From Salinicoccus halitifaciens (GTDB lineage: Bacteria; Bacillota; Bacilli; Staphylococcales; Salinicoccaceae), in assembly GCF_021026095.1 (NCBI RefSeq), contig NZ_JAJNCU010000003.1:1-64000 (forward strand): a stretch of 64,000 nucleotides of DNA, given 5' to 3'. The notes under the pieces are model-generated. The model was not told where the DNA came from. It saw only the letters and a program-made list of their open reading frames with translations, and did not search any database. Both the position numbers and the translations under genes were made by a program. Positions 14,947 to 57,566 of this stretch are shown piece after piece. Numbering within the stretch: position 1 is the stretch's first letter; each line of letters begins with the position of its first letter.

Positions 14947-15927
14947 TTAATTATTTCTCAATTTTTTTAAAATAAATACAAAAAGGCTGATTAAAATAAA
15001 GACCGTTCCAGTGATAATGAGCGTCCAGTCCATTGAAGTGAACCCGGCCGCCTCCTCTGAAAGCACCACTTCTTCCGTCTCCACCGCTTCATCTTCTTCC
15101 TCAGTCACTTCTTCTTCCGCTGAAGCCAGGGCAATGCGAAGCCCTCTTTTGGATCTGTCCGTCAATTCGATTTCTTCAGGTGCTTCCGCCACTTCATATT
15201 CAGCAGCTTCCACTTCAATTTCGTACTGTCCTGAAGGTATGTCCTCAAAGGAAAAACTGCCGTCCTCTTCAGATTCTATTGTTTGTTCTTCAAATCCGTC
15301 ACCTGTCAAAGTCAGCTCCACACCGCCGACACCAAGATTTTCATCATCCATCACAGTGCCTTCAATCGAGAACGCCTCGACCGGCAGGATGTCCACATTC
15401 ACGACCCGCGGTTCATCTTCCTCTGCAGGCTCTTCCACGACCGGGTCCTCGATGACAGGCACTTCTATTATCGGTTCGGGTTCTGGCTGCGGTTCCGGCT
15501 CAGGCTCCGGTTCTGGTTGTGGCTCGGGTTCCGGCTCAGGCTCAATATACTCTTCCACAGGTTCCCACTCTGAAGGTTCATCGTTATAGTAACCATCGTT
15601 AAACTCATTGTAGCCATTGTCATTATAATTGTTGTAATCATCATTATAGTAGGTGTTATCGTCATACGAATCACCCGGGAAGGTGCCGGACGGCTCTTCT
15701 TCTGAATCACCGGTATCGCCGTTTGACTCCTGGTTGTTGTCCGTGTCCTCTTCCTCCTGATCATCAACGGCCTGTTCATTCATACTCTGACCGGGCTGAA
15801 ATGTATTTGCCATTACGCCGGCCGGAAACAGGACCAACATGAGTGACGATATTATAAACAGCAGTTTGACTTTGATGACTTCCACTCCTCTACTGGTTTG
15901 TTGAATATCCACACTTAAATATATCAT
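14947..15927 (-). CDS. Secreted or surface acidic protein with Glu-Pro repeat and carboxypeptidase-regulatory-like domain
   Basis: The open frame is 326 residues. It contains an export signal (KVKLLFIISSLMLVLFPAGVMA), a long acidic Asp/Asn/Tyr-rich linker, an EPEPEPQPEPEP repeat (about residues 131-155), a carboxypeptidase-regulatory-like beta-sandwich domain (SIEGTVMDDENLGVGGVELTL to about 270) and a C-terminal membrane helix (WTLIITGTVFILISLFVFILKKL). No LPXTG motif is present. The start is uncertain: the ATG at 15927 has no binding site, whereas GAGGAG (15890-15885) sits 8 bases before an ATC codon at 15876 that would begin exactly at the signal peptide. The gene lies 12 bases after an ABC ATPase gene. 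It is probably anchored outside with the acidic linker in the wall. Confidence 0.65.
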   Translation of the reverse strand: MIYLSVDIQQTSRGVEVIKVKLLFIISSLMLVLFPAGVMANTFQPGQSMNEQAVDDQEEEDTDNNQESNGDTGDSEEEPSGTFPGDSYDDNTYYNDDYNNYNDNGYNEFNDGYYNDEPSEWEPVEEYIEPEPEPEPQPEPEPEPEPQPEPEPIIEVPVIEDPVVEEPAEEDEPRVVNVDILPVEAFSIEGTVMDDENLGVGGVELTLTGDGFEEQTIESEEDGSFSFEDIPSGQYEIEVEAAEYEVAEAPEEIELTDRSKRGLRIALASAEEEVTEEEDEAVETEEVVLSEEAAGFTSMDWTLIITGTVFILISLFVFILKKLRNN

Positions 15928-32274: not shown

Positions 32275-33492
32275 TCATTTCTCCTCCTCCGCTTCGTCAT
32301 GCTCCTGCTTTTCGCCGGAATACGATTCTTCTTCTTCATCCTTTTCATCGTGCTCCTGCTTTTCACCGGATTCATCAGCTTCCTCGTCATCCGCTTTTGA
32401 TTCTTCTTCTTTTTCCTCTTCCAGCTGCCTGTACCTGTACCACTGCCTGTAGGAATAAGTGATGTTCCGTATCTTGTCTTCCTCTTCCACGGTTGAACCA
32501 AATGCACCGGCGAGGATCCCGGCGGAGGCGGCAAACCATATCAGATCCAGATAGTCATGCCACTCCACATTCAATTCGACATTCGGATCGGTCCATGTTT
32601 CAAAGAGCCCCATTGGGACGAAGGTGAGGATGGAGATCGTGAGCAGCAGACTGACCACGGCGTAACTCACAAGCGTCAGAATCAGGAGGGTCAGCAGGGT
32701 CGTGAAGTTGTAAAGGCGCCTGTATGCAGGCTGGTTCCGTGATGACCGCATCTCCCATAAGTTATGGGCATAAATCAGCCAACCGACCATCCCCGCCACA
32801 GCAATCACCATCAGCAGAATCAACCGCCATGCGGAGTAATCGAGACTGAGTTCCCAAGGTGTCCGGAATATTGATATGTAAGTCCCGGTCGCAAATGCCA
32901 ATGCCACAATCGTCCTGAAATTACGGAACTCCGTCAGCGGTTCATTCAGGGAGGTCATGCCCCCGATGAGCCGGAGCCAGCCGCCGACCGTCGATTTGAG
33001 TATATAGCGGTGCCTCTCGTCCTCCTCATCTATCGACTTGACCGAGGCGATTCGGTTTATGAAATCCGGTTGGACGTCCTCTGTGTCTTCTTCCGATCCT
33101 TTGCCATACAGTATTTCCATATGGTGGACCAGGAGGGTCTCGAGCTTTTTTTTATTCCTGAAGACCCCGATTGCAGGGACGGAAACCAGTGAAAGCTTCC
33201 TGTCGTAATCGAATTCGGAGAGGACAACTTTCTTGTTCGATATACTCGGAAGGTCGGTGACAGCGATCGCCATATCCCAATCATTCTCTTTCTGGATTGA
33301 TCCCAGCCTGTCGAAAATCTCATTGATATATTCAGCTGAGCTTGCCAGAGGGTCTGTCTTAAAGTCGATGTCCCAGTCGATATCCTCCTCCATGGAGGGA
33401 CCTTCCAGTTCATTCAAGCTCTCCATGATATCCCTCAGGAACTTCTCGGGCAGGCCGGGCGCCGAAACCACACCGACAACCATTTTCTTCAT
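32275..33492 (-). CDS. Membrane protein of unknown function, first tandem paralogue with charged repeat tail
   Basis: This 405-residue protein is homologous to the following gene: VGVVSAPGLPEKFLRDIMESLNELEG at the N-terminus, then GGWLRLIGGMTSLNEPLTEFRNFRTIVALAFATGTY (about residues 170-205) and several membrane helices. The C-terminal tail (about 355-405) is highly charged and contains the phrase SGEKQEHDE twice. Translational coupling (one-base gap) suggests the two products form a hetero-complex. The N-terminal half may be a soluble sensor or enzyme domain. No known catalytic motif was recognised. Confidence 0.7.
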   Translation of the reverse strand: MKKMVVGVVSAPGLPEKFLRDIMESLNELEGPSMEEDIDWDIDFKTDPLASSAEYINEIFDRLGSIQKENDWDMAIAVTDLPSISNKKVVLSEFDYDRKLSLVSVPAIGVFRNKKKLETLLVHHMEILYGKGSEEDTEDVQPDFINRIASVKSIDEEDERHRYILKSTVGGWLRLIGGMTSLNEPLTEFRNFRTIVALAFATGTYISIFRTPWELSLDYSAWRLILLMVIAVAGMVGWLIYAHNLWEMRSSRNQPAYRRLYNFTTLLTLLILTLVSYAVVSLLLTISILTFVPMGLFETWTDPNVELNVEWHDYLDLIWFAASAGILAGAFGSTVEEEDKIRNITYSYRQWYRYRQLEEEKEEESKADDEEADESGEKQEHDEKDEEEESYSGEKQEHDEAEEEK

Positions 33493-43053: not shown

Positions 43054-45042
43054 ATGTCTAAGAAAAAAGACGAACTGAGGCAACGCGACACGATTGATAA
43101 CACCAAAGAAGCTCCGCTGACGACGAACCAGGGGTTGCCCATGAGTGAAGATGAATTTTCTTTGAAAGCGGGGGAAAGGGGACCGACTTTGATGGAGGAT
43201 TTCCATCTCCGCGAGAAAATCACCCACTTCGACCATGAACGGATTCCCGAACGCGTCGTCCATGCCCGGGGTTTCGGCGTCCACGGTGAGTTTGAGTTAT
43301 ATGAATCACTTGAGAAGTACACGAAGGCGAAATTTCTGACGGAACCTGGTAAGAAGACACCTGTATTCACACGTTTTTCGACTGTTGCCGGAAACCGTGG
43401 TTCAATGGATATACCCCGTGACGTCCGTGGCTTTGCGACGAAATTTTATACCGAAGAAGGAAACTACGACCTGGTGGCTAATAACATGCCTGTATTCTTC
43501 ATGCAGGACGCGATAAAATTCCCGGATATGGTGCATGCAGTCAAGCCTGAACCACATAATGAGATTCCTCAGGCAGCTTCTGCCCATAACACTTTCTGGG
43601 ATTGGGTGGCCATGAATACTGAAAGTGCCCATATGGTCATGTGGCTGATGAGCGACCGGGCACTCCCGAGAAGCTACAGCATGATGGAAGGTTTCGGTGT
43701 GAACACTTTCAGGCTCGTCAATGCCGAAGGCAGAAGCCACTTCGTCAAATTCCACTGGAAACCTCTGGACGGCACCCACTCTGTCCTATGGGACGAAGCA
43801 CAGCTCATCAACGGCAAGAACATCGACTTCAACCGCCAGACGCTGTGGAAAAATATAGAAAATGGCCAGCCCGCGGAGTTCGAACTGGGCCTCCAGATCA
43901 TTCCCGAAGAGGATGAATTCAAGATGGACTTCGATATTTTGGATCCGACGAAATTATGGCCGGAAGAAGACGTGCCTGTACAGATTGTCGGCAAGTTGTC
44001 GTTGAACCAGAATGTCGATAATTACTTTGCGGAAACCGAGCAGGTCGCATTCCATCCGGGGCATGTCGTGCCGGGCATCGACTTCAGCAATGACCCGCTG
44101 CTGCAGGGGCGTTTATTCTCCTATACGGATACACAGCTCATCCGTCTCGGCGGACCGAACTTCCACCAGATTCCGATCAATCGCCCAATATGCCCGTTTT
44201 CGAACAACCAGCGTGACGGTTACCATCAGTCTTACATCCATAAAGGCGGTACGGCACATCATAAGAACCATATGAACAACAACCAGCCTGAGCCGCTCAG
44301 CCCGGAAAAAGGCGGATATGAACACTATAATGAAAAAGTCGAAGGGCGGAAAGTACGCGCAAGGAGCGACAGCTTCAAAGACCATTTCAGCCAGGCGAAG
44401 ATGTTCTTGAACTCCCTGTCAGAACCGGAGAAGCAGCATCTTTACGATGCATTCAGCTTCGAACTCGGCAAATGTGATATGGAAATCCGGAACCTCGTAC
44501 TGAAGGAACTGATCAATAAAATCGACCGTGACCTCGCGGAGTATGTGGCTGATCAAACCGGAGCCGAGCTTCCTGAAGAGAATGAAGAATCCACATACGG
44601 AAAAAGCTCTCCTGCACTCAGCATGATGAACACGAATTTTTCCTTGAAGACTCGCACAGTCGGTGTCATCGTCACACCAGATGTCACAGAAGACACTTTG
44701 AATGAAACAAAATCGAAGCTTGAAGATAATGGCCTGCAGGTCAAATTCATCTCGGATAAAATGCATAAGATCGGCGATATTACATTGGATGAGACGTTCG
44801 ATACGGTGCACTCCGTCCTGTTCGATTCCATGATTATCATGACTGGCGAATCAGAGCTGCCGGCACCGGCGGTCGAGCAGCTGGAGATCGCGTATAAGCA
44901 CAAAAAAGCGATTGGTTTCGGCGGAAACGTCTCTTTTGATCAACTCTCCTTCTCCGATGGGGAAAAAGGCGTATCCAATATAGAGACCGACCTTGATATA
45001 TTCCTCGACGACGTCAAGCATCACAGAGTATGGGACAGATAA
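43054..45042 (+). CDS. katE: Large-subunit heme catalase (KatE/HPII type)
   Basis: This 662-residue catalase decomposes hydrogen peroxide. The distal His70 sits in [14 protein letters not shown], the catalytic Asn in [12 protein letters not shown] (about residues 142-153), and the heme ligand Tyr357 in [11 protein letters not shown]-terminal flavodoxin/DJ-1-like domain ([20 protein letters not shown] onward, about 535-662) marks clade 2 large-subunit enzymes. AGGAGGGG precedes the ATG. It sits behind a sigma-B-type promoter and is followed by a terminator and a tandem hairpin array. Expression in stationary phase or salt stress is expected. Confidence 0.95.
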
Positions 45043-45051
45043 GTGCACTTG

Positions 45052-45083
45052 ATGAGCCCCGGATTTCGGGGCTCTTTTTATTT
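45052..45083 (+). terminator. katE terminator
   Basis: GAGCCCC and GGGGCTC pair around GGATTTC, followed by TTTTTATTT. Confidence 0.85.
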
Positions 45084-45112
45084 GGTCCGGCAATGGTAGA
45101 GCTGTGCTGTCG

Positions 45113-45394
45113 CTACCGGCCAAACGAAACCCCAATTGGCCGATGGGAGCAGTCTACCGGCCAAACGAAGATCCACTTGGCCGATGGAGGCAATCTACCG
45201 GCCAAACGAGACCCCACTTGGCCGATAGGGGCAGTCTATCGGCCAAACGAAAACCCACTTGGCCGATGGGGGCGGTCTACCGGCCAAACGAGACCCCACT
45301 TGGCCGATGGGGACAGTCTATCGGCCAAACGAGACCCCACTTGGCCGATGGGGACAGTCTACCGGCCAAACGAGACCCCACTTGGCCGATGGGG
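45113..45394. repeat. Tandem array: seven units of exactly 41 bp, each an imperfectly looped hairpin
   Basis: GGCCAAACG recurs at 45118, 45159, 45200, 45241, 45282, 45323 and 45364, always 41 bases apart; the last unit is shortened to about 36. Each unit holds CGGCCAA and TTGGCCG as inverted arms around a 12-base loop. The arms are identical in all seven units while three loops differ. The array fills the gap between the katE terminator and the sodC terminator of two convergent genes. Open frames across it on the plus strand are repeat-encoded and lack a convincing ribosome binding site. Confidence 0.92.
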
Positions 45395-45405
45395 TTTTAT
45401 TCATC

Positions 45406-45440
45406 AAAAAAAGCAGAACCCCCAATAAGGGGTTCTGCTC
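45406..45440 (-). terminator. sodC terminator
   Basis: AGCAGAACCCC and GGGGTTCTGCT pair around AATAA, and seven T residues follow on the minus strand. Confidence 0.85.
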
Positions 45441-45451
45441 TGCATCAATCA

Positions 45452-46045
45452 TTACTCCTGTGGTTCCGTGATGACACCGCAAGCCACCGGGTCTCCGGCA
45501 TCGCCTGACGGCTGGGAGACATAGTCATCCGGATCTTCATGGATGATTAAAGATGTACCGCTGTCGGTCATGAGGGAAGTCTCGACTTCCTCATCCAGGA
45601 TCGTCACGTTTTCAGCCGGGACTTCGGTCGACACTGTGCCGTCCTCAGCCACTTCTATGTTTTCAAGATCTCCGGCATGCGGGCCGTCCTCATGGTCGAA
45701 CCCATGGGAGGCATCCGTTGGATTAAAGTGGCTTCCGGCCGTCTCAAAGGTCGGTCCTTCGCACATTCCTGCATCATGTATATGCATGCCGTGTTCGCCG
45801 GGCTCCAGCCCTTCAGCTTCAAGCGCAATCGTGAGGCCGTCCTCTTCAGATTCAGACAGCACCGCCGTGCCGATCGGCTCTTCCTCAGTGTCGTACATCG
45901 TCACTTCGATTTCCTCCGAAGGCGCCTCTGCCGCGCCGTCGCCGTTTCCATCTTCCTCGGCACCCCCGCCGGATTCTTCATCCGCACCGCAGGCCGCCAG
46001 TACAAAAACCATCATGAACAATGGTATAAATGCCCATCGCTTCAT
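45452..46045 (-). CDS. Cu/Zn-type superoxide dismutase lipoprotein
   Basis: This 197-residue exported protein has a lipobox (VLAAC, Cys19) and an acidic Gly-rich linker. The SOD fold shows the copper/zinc ligand stretches GEHGMHIHDAGMCEG (about residues 83-97), GSHFNPTDASHGFDHEDGPHAGDL (about 103-126) and SLIIHEDPDDYVSQPSGDAGDPVACGVI (about 165-192). The conserved cysteine pair (in MCEGP and VACGVI) is present. It would detoxify superoxide at the outer membrane face, next to the catalase gene but in the opposite direction. Some relatives (YojM) are inactive; here the ligands look complete. Confidence 0.87.
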   Translation of the reverse strand: MKRWAFIPLFMMVFVLAACGADEESGGGAEEDGNGDGAAEAPSEEIEVTMYDTEEEPIGTAVLSESEEDGLTIALEAEGLEPGEHGMHIHDAGMCEGPTFETAGSHFNPTDASHGFDHEDGPHAGDLENIEVAEDGTVSTEVPAENVTILDEEVETSLMTDSGTSLIIHEDPDDYVSQPSGDAGDPVACGVITEPQE

Positions 46046-54482: not shown

Positions 54483-55127
54483 ATGGATAGTTATGCTAAA
54501 TCAACACACTTTTGGGGCCGCCTTACACTCAGTATAGGAATATTGATTTCATTCGCACTGCCCCTCTACCTTTCATTCGTCATGGGGTACCATCCCGGTT
54601 TCCCTCTCATATTGAACGCATTTTTCGCCTATGCCGCAGTCATAGGGGTCGTCTGGTTCCTTGAACCGATCATGTACTACCCGGTGCTCGGATCCGCTGG
54701 TACATACATTGCCTTCTTTACGGGGAATATTTCAAATATGTGTCTTCCTGCGGTCGCAGCATGCCAGGACGCAGTCGGTGTCGAACCGAGTTCTGAGAAA
54801 GGGGAAGTCGTCGCCACACTCGGCATCAGTGCAGCATCCATAGTGAACAAGCTCATACTCGTGCCCGTGATACTTGCCGGGCTCTGGCTGTTGACCGTCA
54901 TACCGGAAGACATCCAGCAAATCTTCCCGTACGTGCTCCCGGCCATCTTCGGGGCGGTATTCGTACAATTCGCCGGCAGGCTGCCGTGGTACGGAATCCT
55001 GGCACTCGCCATCGGTTTCCTTGTCAACGCTTCCCCGGTGCCTTTATTCGCCAAAAATTTACTCTGTGTGCTGCTCGTCGTCGGAATCATGCTCCTGATC
55101 GACAGACGCAAAGAGACAGCCGCCTGA
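54483..55127 (+). CDS. Membrane protein partner of the DUF5058 protein
   Basis: This 214-residue hydrophobic protein has about seven helices. A short conserved-looking reentrant segment YIAFFTGNISNMCLPAVAACQDAVGVEPSSEKGEVVATLGISAASIVNKLI (about residues 74-123) carries two cysteines and small residues, unlike a simple helix. GGAGG lies eight bases before the ATG, and the 13-base gap indicates co-translation with DUF5058. No family name was recognised. I infer a heteromeric transporter or channel, substrate unknown. The aspartate-dehydrogenase-like gene upstream hints at an amino acid. Confidence 0.7.
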   Translation: MDSYAKSTHFWGRLTLSIGILISFALPLYLSFVMGYHPGFPLILNAFFAYAAVIGVVWFLEPIMYYPVLGSAGTYIAFFTGNISNMCLPAVAACQDAVGVEPSSEKGEVVATLGISAASIVNKLILVPVILAGLWLLTVIPEDIQQIFPYVLPAIFGAVFVQFAGRLPWYGILALAIGFLVNASPVPLFAKNLLCVLLVVGIMLLIDRRKETAA

Positions 55128-55181: not shown

Positions 55182-55202
55182 AATCATGCCGGGAGGTTGC
55201 TG

Positions 55203-55508
55203 CTGTTCAGATAGGACCGGAAATCCGGATAACTGAACACTTGAAGGCCGTTACTGTTTAGATAGAGCCGGAAATCCGGATAACTGAACACCTGAAGGCC
55301 GTTGCTGTTTAGATAGAGCCGGAAATCCGGATAACTGAACACCTGAAGGCCGTTACTGTTCAGATAGGCTTGGAAATCCGGATAACTGAACACCTGAAGG
55401 CCGTTGCTGTTTAGATAGGCCTGGAAATCTTGCTAACTGAACACCTGAAGGCCGTTGCTGTTTAGATAGGCCCAGAAATCAGGATAACTGAACACTTGAA
55501 GGCTCCGG
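55203..55508. repeat. Tandem array: six units of exactly 51 bp with inverted arms
   Basis: CTGTTYAGATAG recurs at 55203, 55254, 55305, 55356, 55407 and 55458, a strict 51-base period. Units hold TGTT(C/T)AG and CTGAACA as outer arms and, in most, CCGGAAATCCGG inside. Unit five is changed in the centre (AATCTTGCT) but keeps the arms. Because 51 is a multiple of three, the minus strand encodes a 17-residue repeat (FSYPDFRLYLNSNGLQV), but no ribosome binding site was seen. The array lies between two convergent genes, like the 41-bp array. Confidence 0.92.
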
Positions 55509-55511
55509 CAC

Positions 55512-57566
55512 TCAGTCCAGCAGATACAGATTCCTCGTCGCACGGGATGCGAGTACGTATTTGACGAGGGGAAGGTCGTCATAAAACGACGATTCCGTGA
55601 TGATGACGGTATTGTACTCGAAGCCTTTCGACAAGTAATAAGGCAGGACGAGATAATCCTGATTATAAATCGTGTCGACTTCCTGCAGGTTTTTCAAACC
55701 CGGAATGTCATCCTTCAATTCCTCAAAAATACGGTCCGCCGCTTCCCGTGACGGTGTAATGATCGCCATCTGCTCCGGCATGTCCCGACTTACCATCGAC
55801 CGGATATGCGCCGCTTCATCTTCAACATCAATAAACTGCACGTCCTGTCCGTCGACGGAGACCGAATCGATGCCGCCGGGCACGATGGTATTCAAATAAT
55901 CGTTGATTTGGTTCGTCGAGCGGTAGGACTTCTGAAGCTGCATCACATGATGGTCGTCTGCGATCAATTCCGGACTGCCGACCGGATGGATCTGCTGGTG
56001 CTTATCGCCGAGGCTCGTGAATGTCGCATTCCGATAATAGTCCTTCATCACTGCATACTGGATGTTGGAATAGTCCTGGACTTCATCAAGGATGACGTGG
56101 CGTATCTTTTTATTGCCCGCGCCGATGATATGGATGTACAGGTACAGCATGGGTGCAAGGTCCTCATATTTGAAGTCGTTGCGCTTGATGTTTTCTATCG
56201 TTTCGCGCCGCACGGCCTTGTCCGCAATCGACCGGACATACACCTTCTCAAGCTGGACGAACCTGAACCGGCGTATTTGCGCATGGAGGGCTGCGAGCTC
56301 TTTTGTGGCCTCATCATTGGCCATCTTCTTCAACTCTTCCCTCTCACCGATATACTCGGGCGATTCGTCGAGCGCCTTGAACTTCTCCCCAGTCAGCTGC
56401 TTCAGCTCCCTACGGTATATATCCAGCAGGTCTTCATAGATCTTATGCAGACGGCGCGTGACGGGATGGGCGCCCAGATCCTCGTAGAACACCCTTTCAA
56501 TCAGTTCTTTCGGGACAAGCACTTTCCCGCCGTATTTCAAATCCCGGAAATGCATCCCGTATTCACCGAGTCTTTCGATATACTGCTTCAGATGGCTGAA
56601 GTATTCAACGGACGTCTTGTACTTATATGCCGATGCATCCTCGTGGCCCAGCCGCTGGATGTTTTCTGCGAGCGACTCGAACCTGCGCCCGTTGAAATAA
56701 ATGAATGCGTTACGCATGCGGTAGAACGTCATATTTTTGACATTCTCCTCGCCGAGCTCCGGCAGCACGTCGGACACATAGTCGTTGAACACTTCATTCG
56801 GTGACATCAGCATGATGTTCTCCGCCTTCAGGCGGTCCCTGTACGTGAACATCAAATACGCGATGCGCTGCATCGCAAGCGACGTCTTACCGCTCCCCGG
56901 CGGACCGTAGACGAGCGTGTCCTGGTTGAGCGGCTGGCGGATGATGATGTTCTGTTCGCTCTGGATCGTTGCAACGATATTTTTAAGTTTCGACCTGGAA
57001 GAATCGGTGATCAGCTGCTGGAGCATCTCATCGCCGATGTACAGATCGCTGTCGAACATGTTCAAAAGCTTCCCGCCCTCGATCTGGAACTGGCGCCTGA
57101 GCGTGACGTCGCTTTTTATTTTCGTACCGTCGGGAATCCTGTAGGTCAGTTCACCGACGCGGTTCTCGTAAAATAAACTCGCAATCGGCGTACGCCAGTC
57201 GTAGATCAGGATATTGTGTTCATTATCCTGGATGGTCGCACCGCCGATGTACACCGGCTCCCCGTCCACGACCAGCTTGCCGAAGTAAGGCTTATGCATC
57301 AGACGCTCAGTCGTCTCCCGCATGTCTTCTATATAATTGAATTTCATTTCAGTCATGCGCATTTCCGGCACCATCGAAATGAAGTCCATGACGTTGCCGT
57401 CTTCAAAATCGAATGTATTGGACACATCGTCATTCAGTGCTTTCCGCGTCTCAAGAATATCTCCGGATGTCATATCCAGCTGTTTCGAAAGGCTCGCATT
57501 ATATGCTTTCAGGAAATTCACCGTGAAGTCCAGATGCCCCGCTTCATGTTCAAATTCATTCCCCAT
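55512..57566 (-). CDS. helD: RNA polymerase recycling helicase-like protein HelD
   Basis: This 684-residue UvrD-like superfamily 1 protein has an N-terminal coiled region (about residues 10-90), Walker A DTLVYGPPGSGKTSLAMQRIAYL (about 217-239), the Walker B region HVILDEVQDYSNIQYAVM (about 487-504), LGDKHQQIHP (about 517-526) and motif VI-like YVLASRATRNLYLLD at the end. HelD frees stalled RNA polymerase from nucleic acid. It is shorter than B. subtilis HelD (774 as I recall), mainly from shorter loops. GAGGAG precedes the ATG. The array and terminator form its 3' region. Confidence 0.88.
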   Translation of the reverse strand: MGNEFEHEAGHLDFTVNFLKAYNASLSKQLDMTSGDILETRKALNDDVSNTFDFEDGNVMDFISMVPEMRMTEMKFNYIEDMRETTERLMHKPYFGKLVVDGEPVYIGGATIQDNEHNILIYDWRTPIASLFYENRVGELTYRIPDGTKIKSDVTLRRQFQIEGGKLLNMFDSDLYIGDEMLQQLITDSSRSKLKNIVATIQSEQNIIIRQPLNQDTLVYGPPGSGKTSLAMQRIAYLMFTYRDRLKAENIMLMSPNEVFNDYVSDVLPELGEENVKNMTFYRMRNAFIYFNGRRFESLAENIQRLGHEDASAYKYKTSVEYFSHLKQYIERLGEYGMHFRDLKYGGKVLVPKELIERVFYEDLGAHPVTRRLHKIYEDLLDIYRRELKQLTGEKFKALDESPEYIGEREELKKMANDEATKELAALHAQIRRFRFVQLEKVYVRSIADKAVRRETIENIKRNDFKYEDLAPMLYLYIHIIGAGNKKIRHVILDEVQDYSNIQYAVMKDYYRNATFTSLGDKHQQIHPVGSPELIADDHHVMQLQKSYRSTNQINDYLNTIVPGGIDSVSVDGQDVQFIDVEDEAAHIRSMVSRDMPEQMAIITPSREAADRIFEELKDDIPGLKNLQEVDTIYNQDYLVLPYYLSKGFEYNTVIITESSFYDDLPLVKYVLASRATRNLYLLD

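Follow-up and report, generated by a model that had tools for sequence, protein, structure and literature searches.

The window considered here, a 64,000-nucleotide stretch of the Salinicoccus halitifaciens genome (contig NZ_JAJNCU010000003.1, positions 1 to 64,000 of the forward strand), contains a gene for a long catalase of the katE type and, converging on it, one for a Cu/Zn superoxide dismutase, and in the gap between their 3′ ends lies a tandem array of hairpin units with the terminator of each gene facing it. The catalase shares 87% identity with its counterpart in Salinicoccus sp. YB14-2. The features are as follows.

43054..45042, + strand: katE-type long catalase, 662 aa, the left convergent gene (Pfam PF00199, PF06628, PF18011)
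45054..45079, + strand: intrinsic terminator of the catalase gene, hairpin GAGCCCCGGATTTCGGGGCTC then a T run, facing the array (read from sequence)
45113..45394, + strand: tandem array of seven 41-bp hairpin units of family A, 5′ CTAY-CGGCCAA-N12-TTGGCCG-ATRG-linker 3′ (TRF, unit list, whole-genome pattern, covariance model matches)
45117..45142, + strand: unit 1, core palindrome CGGCCAA-N12-TTGGCCG (read from sequence)
45158..45183, + strand: unit 2, core palindrome (read from sequence)
45199..45224, + strand: unit 3, core palindrome (read from sequence)
45240..45265, + strand: unit 4, core palindrome (read from sequence)
45281..45306, + strand: unit 5, core palindrome (read from sequence)
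45322..45347, + strand: unit 6, core palindrome (read from sequence)
45363..45388, + strand: unit 7, core palindrome, its linker truncated by the end of the array (read from sequence)
45406..45438, - strand: intrinsic terminator of sodC, hairpin and T run, facing the array (read from sequence)
45452..46045, - strand: Cu/Zn superoxide dismutase, sodC, the right convergent gene (Pfam PF00080)

TRF gives the array a period of 41, 6.9 copies and a score of 450, and the seven unit cores, beginning at 45117, 45158, 45199, 45240, 45281, 45322 and 45363, are separated by steps of exactly 41 throughout, just as a first-pass annotation of this DNA had described. That annotation was also right that all seven units have the same arms, CGGCCAA and TTGGCCG, that the 12-base loop departs in units 1, 2 and 4, and that the array sits between two terminators of convergent genes, the Pfam assignments of catalase and Cu/Zn superoxide dismutase and the terminators as read agreeing on this. 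Absent from it is that the 15-base linker also varies (CTAC/CTAT, ATGG/ATAG and others), and its hairpin, correct in the arms, was too short, as the stem extends to 11 positions, CTA[CT]-CGGCCAA ... TTGGCCG-AT[GA]G, most units having a T.G wobble and those that start CTAC a C.A mismatch. Could such a row of palindromes be accidental? With at most one mismatch allowed, the palindrome pattern occurs 67 times in the whole S. halitifaciens genome and not once in the reversed control, and so the array is not a product of chance.

A BLAST search with the katE-sodC array gave 15 matches in its own genome, representing 12 arrays on contigs C4, C5, C6, C7 and C10, and matches in five of 60 genomes (its own included), all of one genus. 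A covariance model of family A matches five of 33 genomes of the bacterial family, these being five of the six from the genus and none of the 27 others, and G004, the sole genus genome lacking a match by that model, is 80% complete. The strict palindrome, again with one mismatch allowed and with reversed controls at zero, is found 10 times in G005, five times in G001, four in G003, twice in G002 and not in G004, these being the other genomes of the genus. Of the 61 steps between adjacent units of the family, 60 measure 41 and the remaining one 40, and there are in addition three double steps of 82. Seven of the 12 S. halitifaciens A arrays lie within one 75-kb region (C10, 37-112 kb, loci L009-L013). 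Stretches of C10 at 45-85 kb have a raised GC content (53-54%) and a GC skew near zero, and the G001 region syntenic to the array-dense part of C10 is likewise rich in arrays. Are these arrays the traces of something mobile? A single mobile unit was considered and rejected, the identical A units of G001 and G003 sharing flanks and thus being one orthologous locus; mobile cargo was rejected too, there being no match among 72,556 plasmid and 50,697 phage records.

The array is no special element of katE and sodC but one of 79 arrays, in 16 sequence clusters, of a class defined by its periods. Of the 82 non-coding tandem arrays that TRF found in the Salinicoccus stretches read, 79 have a period of 41 (n = 47) or 50-52 (n = 32), the three misses having periods of 34, 26 and 87 (the last a tRNA cluster), in a set from which periods below 15 were dropped and from which an ORF filter excluded as ‘coding’ some arrays of 41, 51 and 52 bp (one of each in S. 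halitifaciens, one of 41 in the G001 C4 region and two of 51 in G002), at least one of them, L016 beside topB, wrongly. Fifty stretches of S. halitifaciens (1.012 Mb) contributed 41 non-coding arrays, 21 at 41, 19 at 50-52 and one at 34; a 400-kb region of G001 contributed 15 at 41, eight at 51 and one at 26; 17 stretches of the G001 contig C1 (340 kb) two, both at 51; in G005 (86 kb) the period was 41 for 10 arrays and 51 for one; from G002 (291 kb) came two at 51 besides the tRNA cluster, and from G003 (13 kb) a single array at 41. Altogether the reading covered about 1.0 of the 2.68 Mb of the S. halitifaciens genome, some 0.75 Mb of G001 and lesser amounts of G002, G003 and G005, with G004 covered by the searches and read at its katE locus only. 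The stretches around family A and 51-bp matches were selected for their arrays, and the G001 C4 region for its synteny with the array-rich contig C10. Where 36 S. halitifaciens stretches were picked regardless of arrays, 11 of 14 intergenic arrays with a TRF score of at least 60 had a period of 41 or 50-52, the other three having periods of 21, 24 and 34 and about two copies each. In the G001 C4 region a score of at least 60 combined with a codon-usage gene finder put 23 of 26 arrays at the class periods (the others at 22, 26 and 60), and a score of at least 80 with the ORF filter 23 of 24. The same pipeline found no non-coding array in 400 kb of a genome of a sister genus, G032, while the 1.05 Mb of 79 catalase loci from other bacteria yielded four, with periods of 52, 57, 122 and 150.

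By sequence similarity four of the 16 clusters have period 41 and 12 have 50-52, and none mixes the two. Under a strict test only 42 of the 79 consensus units exceed shuffled sequences in palindromy at p 0.05. The window holds a second array of the class:

55201..55503, + strand: array of 51-bp units, stem TGTTTAG.../...CTGAACA (TRF)

It too sits between convergent gene calls (54582-55127, + strand, and 55512-57566, - strand), and it has 10 matches in its own genome and eight in G005, the remaining 38 of the 40 genomes searched having none.

How general is the location between convergent genes? In the 36 S. halitifaciens stretches chosen regardless of arrays, and for gaps of at least 100 bp, arrays occupy seven of 21 convergent gaps compared with three of 212 others (Fisher p 2e-6), and in the 400-kb G001 C4 region 13 of 33 compared with nine of 106 (p 1e-4); the G002 stretches have arrays in two of 21 convergent and none of 93 other gaps. 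In 14 stretches of G001 C1 the counts are none of 15 convergent gaps and one of 75 others, so that array density is uneven. A set of 78 arrays, partly selected around known ones and omitting those flanked by a gene on a single side (L163, L020, L023 and L258), divides into 54 in convergent positions and 24 not. Gene calls came from a custom finder, by which single genes may be miscalled.

At six loci, whose names here are a reading of the encoded proteins (crp, fabI, trpS-fabF, galU, prfC and katE), the arrays are built from as many as three types of unit, namely A (CGGCCAA/TTGGCCG), B (CGCTCA/TGAGCG) and C (AACGGACCGTC/GATGAGCCGTT), all keeping a 41-bp register to within one base. When S. halitifaciens is compared with G005, where the flanking proteins are mostly 93-99% identical, the order of types is retained at these loci and the copy numbers differ, as follows (letters denote types, numerals copies).

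crp: C2-A7-B3 in S. halitifaciens, C7-A1-B1 in G005
fabI: C5-A7-B2 (the B units degenerate) in S. halitifaciens, C1-A5-B1 in G005
trpS-fabF: C1-A5 and an A/B chimera in S. halitifaciens, C8-A2-B4 in G005
prfC: A8-C2 and a broken C in S. halitifaciens, A1-C7 and a broken C in G005
galU: B3-A6 in S. halitifaciens, B7-A1 in G005
katE: A7 in S. halitifaciens, A1-B5 and a broken sixth B in G005

The first-pass annotation had proposed counting copies in related genomes, and downstream of katE the number is indeed seven units in S. halitifaciens, one in G002, and one A and five B in G005; the repeat thus occurs in relatives, with hairpin shape kept between A and B, and the result that the annotation had named as refuting its view (a repeat missing from every relative, with freely diverging arms wherever it is present) was not obtained. 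In the 600 bases read downstream of katE in G001, G003 and G004 there are no units, the sequence there being different. The G005 contig ends about 100 bp past its katE array (end of L020, C12:34634). The chimeric unit at the end of the trpS-fabF array (L009, 12755-12780, - strand) has a 5′ arm of type A and a 3′ arm of type B, which do not pair, and looks like a recombination product.

Over a greater distance, of eight S. halitifaciens array gaps that have their flanking genes side by side in the G001 region, five carry an array there as well, of the same period class (four 41/41 and one 51/51), compared with none of 39 array-less gaps with conserved neighbours (p 4e-5), in a sample partly picked around arrays. 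The fabI locus, with arrays in S. halitifaciens, G005 and G001, was left out of the eight because an intervening gene is uncalled in G001, and one of the three array-less G001 counterparts has a single A-type unit (C4:971776). Loci and period class, then, tend to persist between species and it is the unit types that expand or shrink.

Is it the sequence of the arms or their pairing that is kept? A and B units pair on one axis, in 95% and 83% of cells respectively, and when slid by 1-3 positions in at most 49% and 50%, whereas the best axis of C units is half a base off that of A and B, with 61% paired. Within family A, 41 distinct units are 94.7% paired with no two-sided cell at all, so arm conservation inside the family is uninformative, and the view that it suggests selection, which the first-pass annotation had taken, is not supported in that form: invariant arms within one homogenised array prove nothing by themselves. 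The arms of A and B differ by two paired changes, G-C/C-G and C-G/T-A, and when the two families are taken together 43 cells show two-sided change, compared with 15 in shuffles (none of 500 reaching 43), these cells not being events and nearly all stemming from the two pairs. Family B alone has two-sided change at five pairs, each in one or two units that are partly degenerate or out of register. The idea of selection for a hairpin shape is partly supported: shape is retained where the arms differ, between A and B, and within family A there is no compensatory change. Paired changes show that the shape has been retained, which does not prove selection as template switching could also yield them.

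To what known elements might the arrays be compared? The REP and BIME sequences of E. coli and Pseudomonas (GTAG/CGTC families) are, according to the literature, also many short intergenic imperfect palindromes with G.T pairs in their stems, they prefer convergent and unidirectional 3′ gene ends, and in P. fluorescens SBW25 they form tandem arrays (PMC3116915, PMC3733652, PMC1525189). Dispersed intergenic imperfect palindromes are what is found here too, in the 12 A arrays of S. halitifaciens and in the 79 arrays and 16 clusters of the class. However, the SBW25 separations are given as 112 and 72 bp (same sources), while the Salinicoccus units run head to tail at 41 or 50-52 bp and form many unrelated sequence clusters; BIME units are described as alternating in orientation (PMC2817692), in contrast to the head-to-tail order in the Salinicoccus arrays printed. 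REP and BIME sequences are accompanied by RAYT transposases. A search for the Y1 (RAYT) transposase domain, PF01797, that was positive in five of 14 control genomes, E. coli among them, found none in the S. halitifaciens genome, and a RAYT-driven REP was rejected for lack of a Y1_Tnp domain there. Staphylococcus aureus STAR elements share with the present arrays an intergenic location, tandem units and variable copy number, and their repeats, put at ‘about 50 nucleotides’, come near the 50-52 class; in the main text of that paper their locations are said to be unconserved between species and the words ‘convergent’ and ‘hairpin’ do not appear (PMC3532100). The STAR period as there defined (a 14-bp motif and a 40-44 bp spacer, giving 54-58) does not suit the 41-bp arrays, and the 50-52 class, though in line with ‘about 50’, falls short of 54-58. 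The 14-bp motif, T(G/A/T)TGTTG(G/T)GGCCC(C/A), does not occur on either strand in 1.012 Mb of the S. halitifaciens genome, and on that account identity with STAR was rejected.

Intergenic minisatellites of the VNTR/MIRU type are likewise tandem units with a copy number that varies between strains. The Salinicoccus arrays differ from them in their two narrow period classes, which span many sequences, in their palindromic units and in their concentration in convergent gaps. ‘False CRISPR’ elements resemble them in regular period, repeated palindromic core and variable middle (PMC5294841), but the seven loops of the katE-sodC array are near-identical, or homogenised, rather than unique spacers. 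With Rfam, positions 44500-46000 gave 18 sub-threshold matches and none at gathering score, for which reason a known structured RNA family was rejected. In the open-access literature, a scope that is no proof of absence, searches for intergenic repeats of Salinicoccus, for repeats of 41/51 bp and for hairpins between convergent genes located no paper on this class, those on convergent-gene hairpins being judged by title or abstract; the S. halodurans genome paper reports 58 tandem repeats without, in the text available, describing them (PMC4667468). We place the class among the intergenic palindromic repeats, as a variant that is neither REP nor STAR.

What might such arrays do? Arrays of mostly imperfect palindromes, fixed in period and variable in sequence, are concentrated between convergent genes, often at the same loci across the sampled Salinicoccus species, a pattern suggesting that what is maintained is the spacing and the hairpin shape, not the sequence. 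Taken together, the convergent gaps, the recurring loci, the fixed period, the exchangeable sequence and the palindromic shape argue that it is the number and pitch of the palindromes that matter. The interpretation to which we tentatively give first place, going by sequence, is that the arrays are DNA boundary elements akin to BIMEs, topological or nucleoprotein in nature, at convergent junctions, with pitch and shape counting for more than sequence. Each unit would be an interchangeable palindromic module, and a pitch near four or five helical turns would bring the modules to much the same side of the helix, though phasing of this kind rests on two period values (41/4 = 10.25 and 51/5 = 10.2), and at 10.5 bp per turn seven units drift out of phase, which tells against it. 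A protein or topoisomerase sitting on the array might absorb the torsion of converging RNA polymerases or keep them apart. Positive supercoils are reported from GapR-seq to gather at convergent junctions (PMC8360656), and with gyrase described as binding REPs (PMC1525189, PMC3733652) it is, by analogy, the obvious candidate occupant. Units would multiply or contract by slippage or unequal recombination, any type being acceptable in register, and so sequence would shift while pitch stayed. Also weighing against a boundary role are the uneven density of arrays, the 24 of 78 arrays outside convergent positions, the three of eight loci that lack an array in G001, the lack of units downstream of katE in G001, G003 and G004, the absence of two-sided change within family A, an A/B contrast that amounts to two events, and the count of only 42 in 79 consensus units that pass the strict palindrome test. 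Of the earlier candidates, an insulator, a DNA-binding array or a recombination-prone spacer, a boundary role would fit the enrichment in convergent gaps and the recombination-prone part the changes in copy number. An improbable extension is that the arrays are a chromosome element indifferent to sequence, a gauge or docking lattice for positive supercoils in which sequence is free provided register is kept: pitches of 41 and 51 bp (10.25 and 10.2 bp per turn) would phase exactly only in DNA overwound by about 2.4-2.9% relative to 10.5, as it would be between converging polymerases.

Ranked close behind the boundary interpretation, and a serious if likewise tentative contender, is that the arrays are a neutral or selfish satellite, with units growing by slippage and surviving only in places free of promoters and regulators, namely at convergent gene ends, where neutral repeats would do least harm; that regulatory DNA is absent from convergent gaps is an argument already made for REPs (PMC1525189). 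Palindromy would then come from quasipalindrome template switching, a process known in E. coli (PMC7202029), which could make the A/B paired changes, and the period from descent from two ancestral units. Such a satellite is favoured by the strong shifts in copy number of unit types between S. halitifaciens and G005, by the uneven density of arrays over the genome and by the tendency of adjacent arrays in the G001 region (C4 793-1193 kb, L259-L278) to share a family, as local spread would give (nine of 22 pairs where 3.3 are expected, p 5e-4, or 4.4 when shuffled within period class, p 0.006). It accounts poorly for two narrow period classes held over 16 clusters that have no detectable similarity, satellites being expected to drift, for the recurrence of array loci in G001 (five of eight compared with none of 39), and for the lack of any non-coding array in the 400 kb of the sister genus. 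An RNA-level trap comes third and we consider it unlikely: read-through transcripts would fold into a row of hairpins that stops polymerase or exonucleases and so prevents antisense between convergent genes. Palindromes function in both directions, which would suit convergent genes, and the conserved T.G pairs of A and B resemble the GT pairing used to argue for transcribed REPs (PMC3733652). Arrays might even substitute for terminators, with both sides having a recognised one in 17 of 40 convergent array gaps while 58 of 96 array-free gaps have one for each gene, a rough comparison as the whole gap was searched in the latter and a shorter stretch in the former; but at least one recognised terminator is present in 37 of those 40. 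No Rfam family reaches gathering score, and the stabler strand is lagging-sense in 16 and leading-sense in 17 of 33 convergent 41-bp arrays, so that no strand stands out as the sense one. Because a row of RNA hairpins needs no exact 41 or 51 pitch and folding energy favours neither strand, a role at the level of DNA rather than RNA is indicated. A strand-specific RNA was separately rejected, the excess of G.T over A.C in family A coming mostly from one column and folding energies favouring no strand.

To our knowledge, intergenic palindromic repeats have been known for decades with no agreement on their function. In these arrays the period and the locus tend to be retained as one sequence gives way to another, which separates pitch and shape from sequence and makes function testable. 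Should the arrays prove to handle torsion where genes converge, Salinicoccus would offer dozens of natural replicates, and if they are neutral they would be an unusually clear bacterial satellite with strict control of period.

The strand of the A-type unit opposes the local gene majority in all 12 S. halitifaciens A arrays, a rule that the other families break. Might the units then be a polar replication element, placed on one strand relative to the fork and pausing forks before head-on genes? The 12 of 12 speaks for it, and we regard it as very improbable nonetheless, with seven of the 12 on C10, in stretches where GC skew is -0.011 to 0.046 and the + strand gene share goes down to 0.53, with, as read from the consensus units of other families, one G001 family alternating in orientation between 876 and 902 kb, the B units at C4:62.6 kb pointing against the adjacent A array and two arrays of the same family in L185 (C1) pointing opposite ways, and with sense as judged by energy showing no link.

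The window also has short tandem repeats within ORFs, at 15472-15543 (18/36 bp) and 32293-32392 (51 bp, two copies), unlike the intergenic class.
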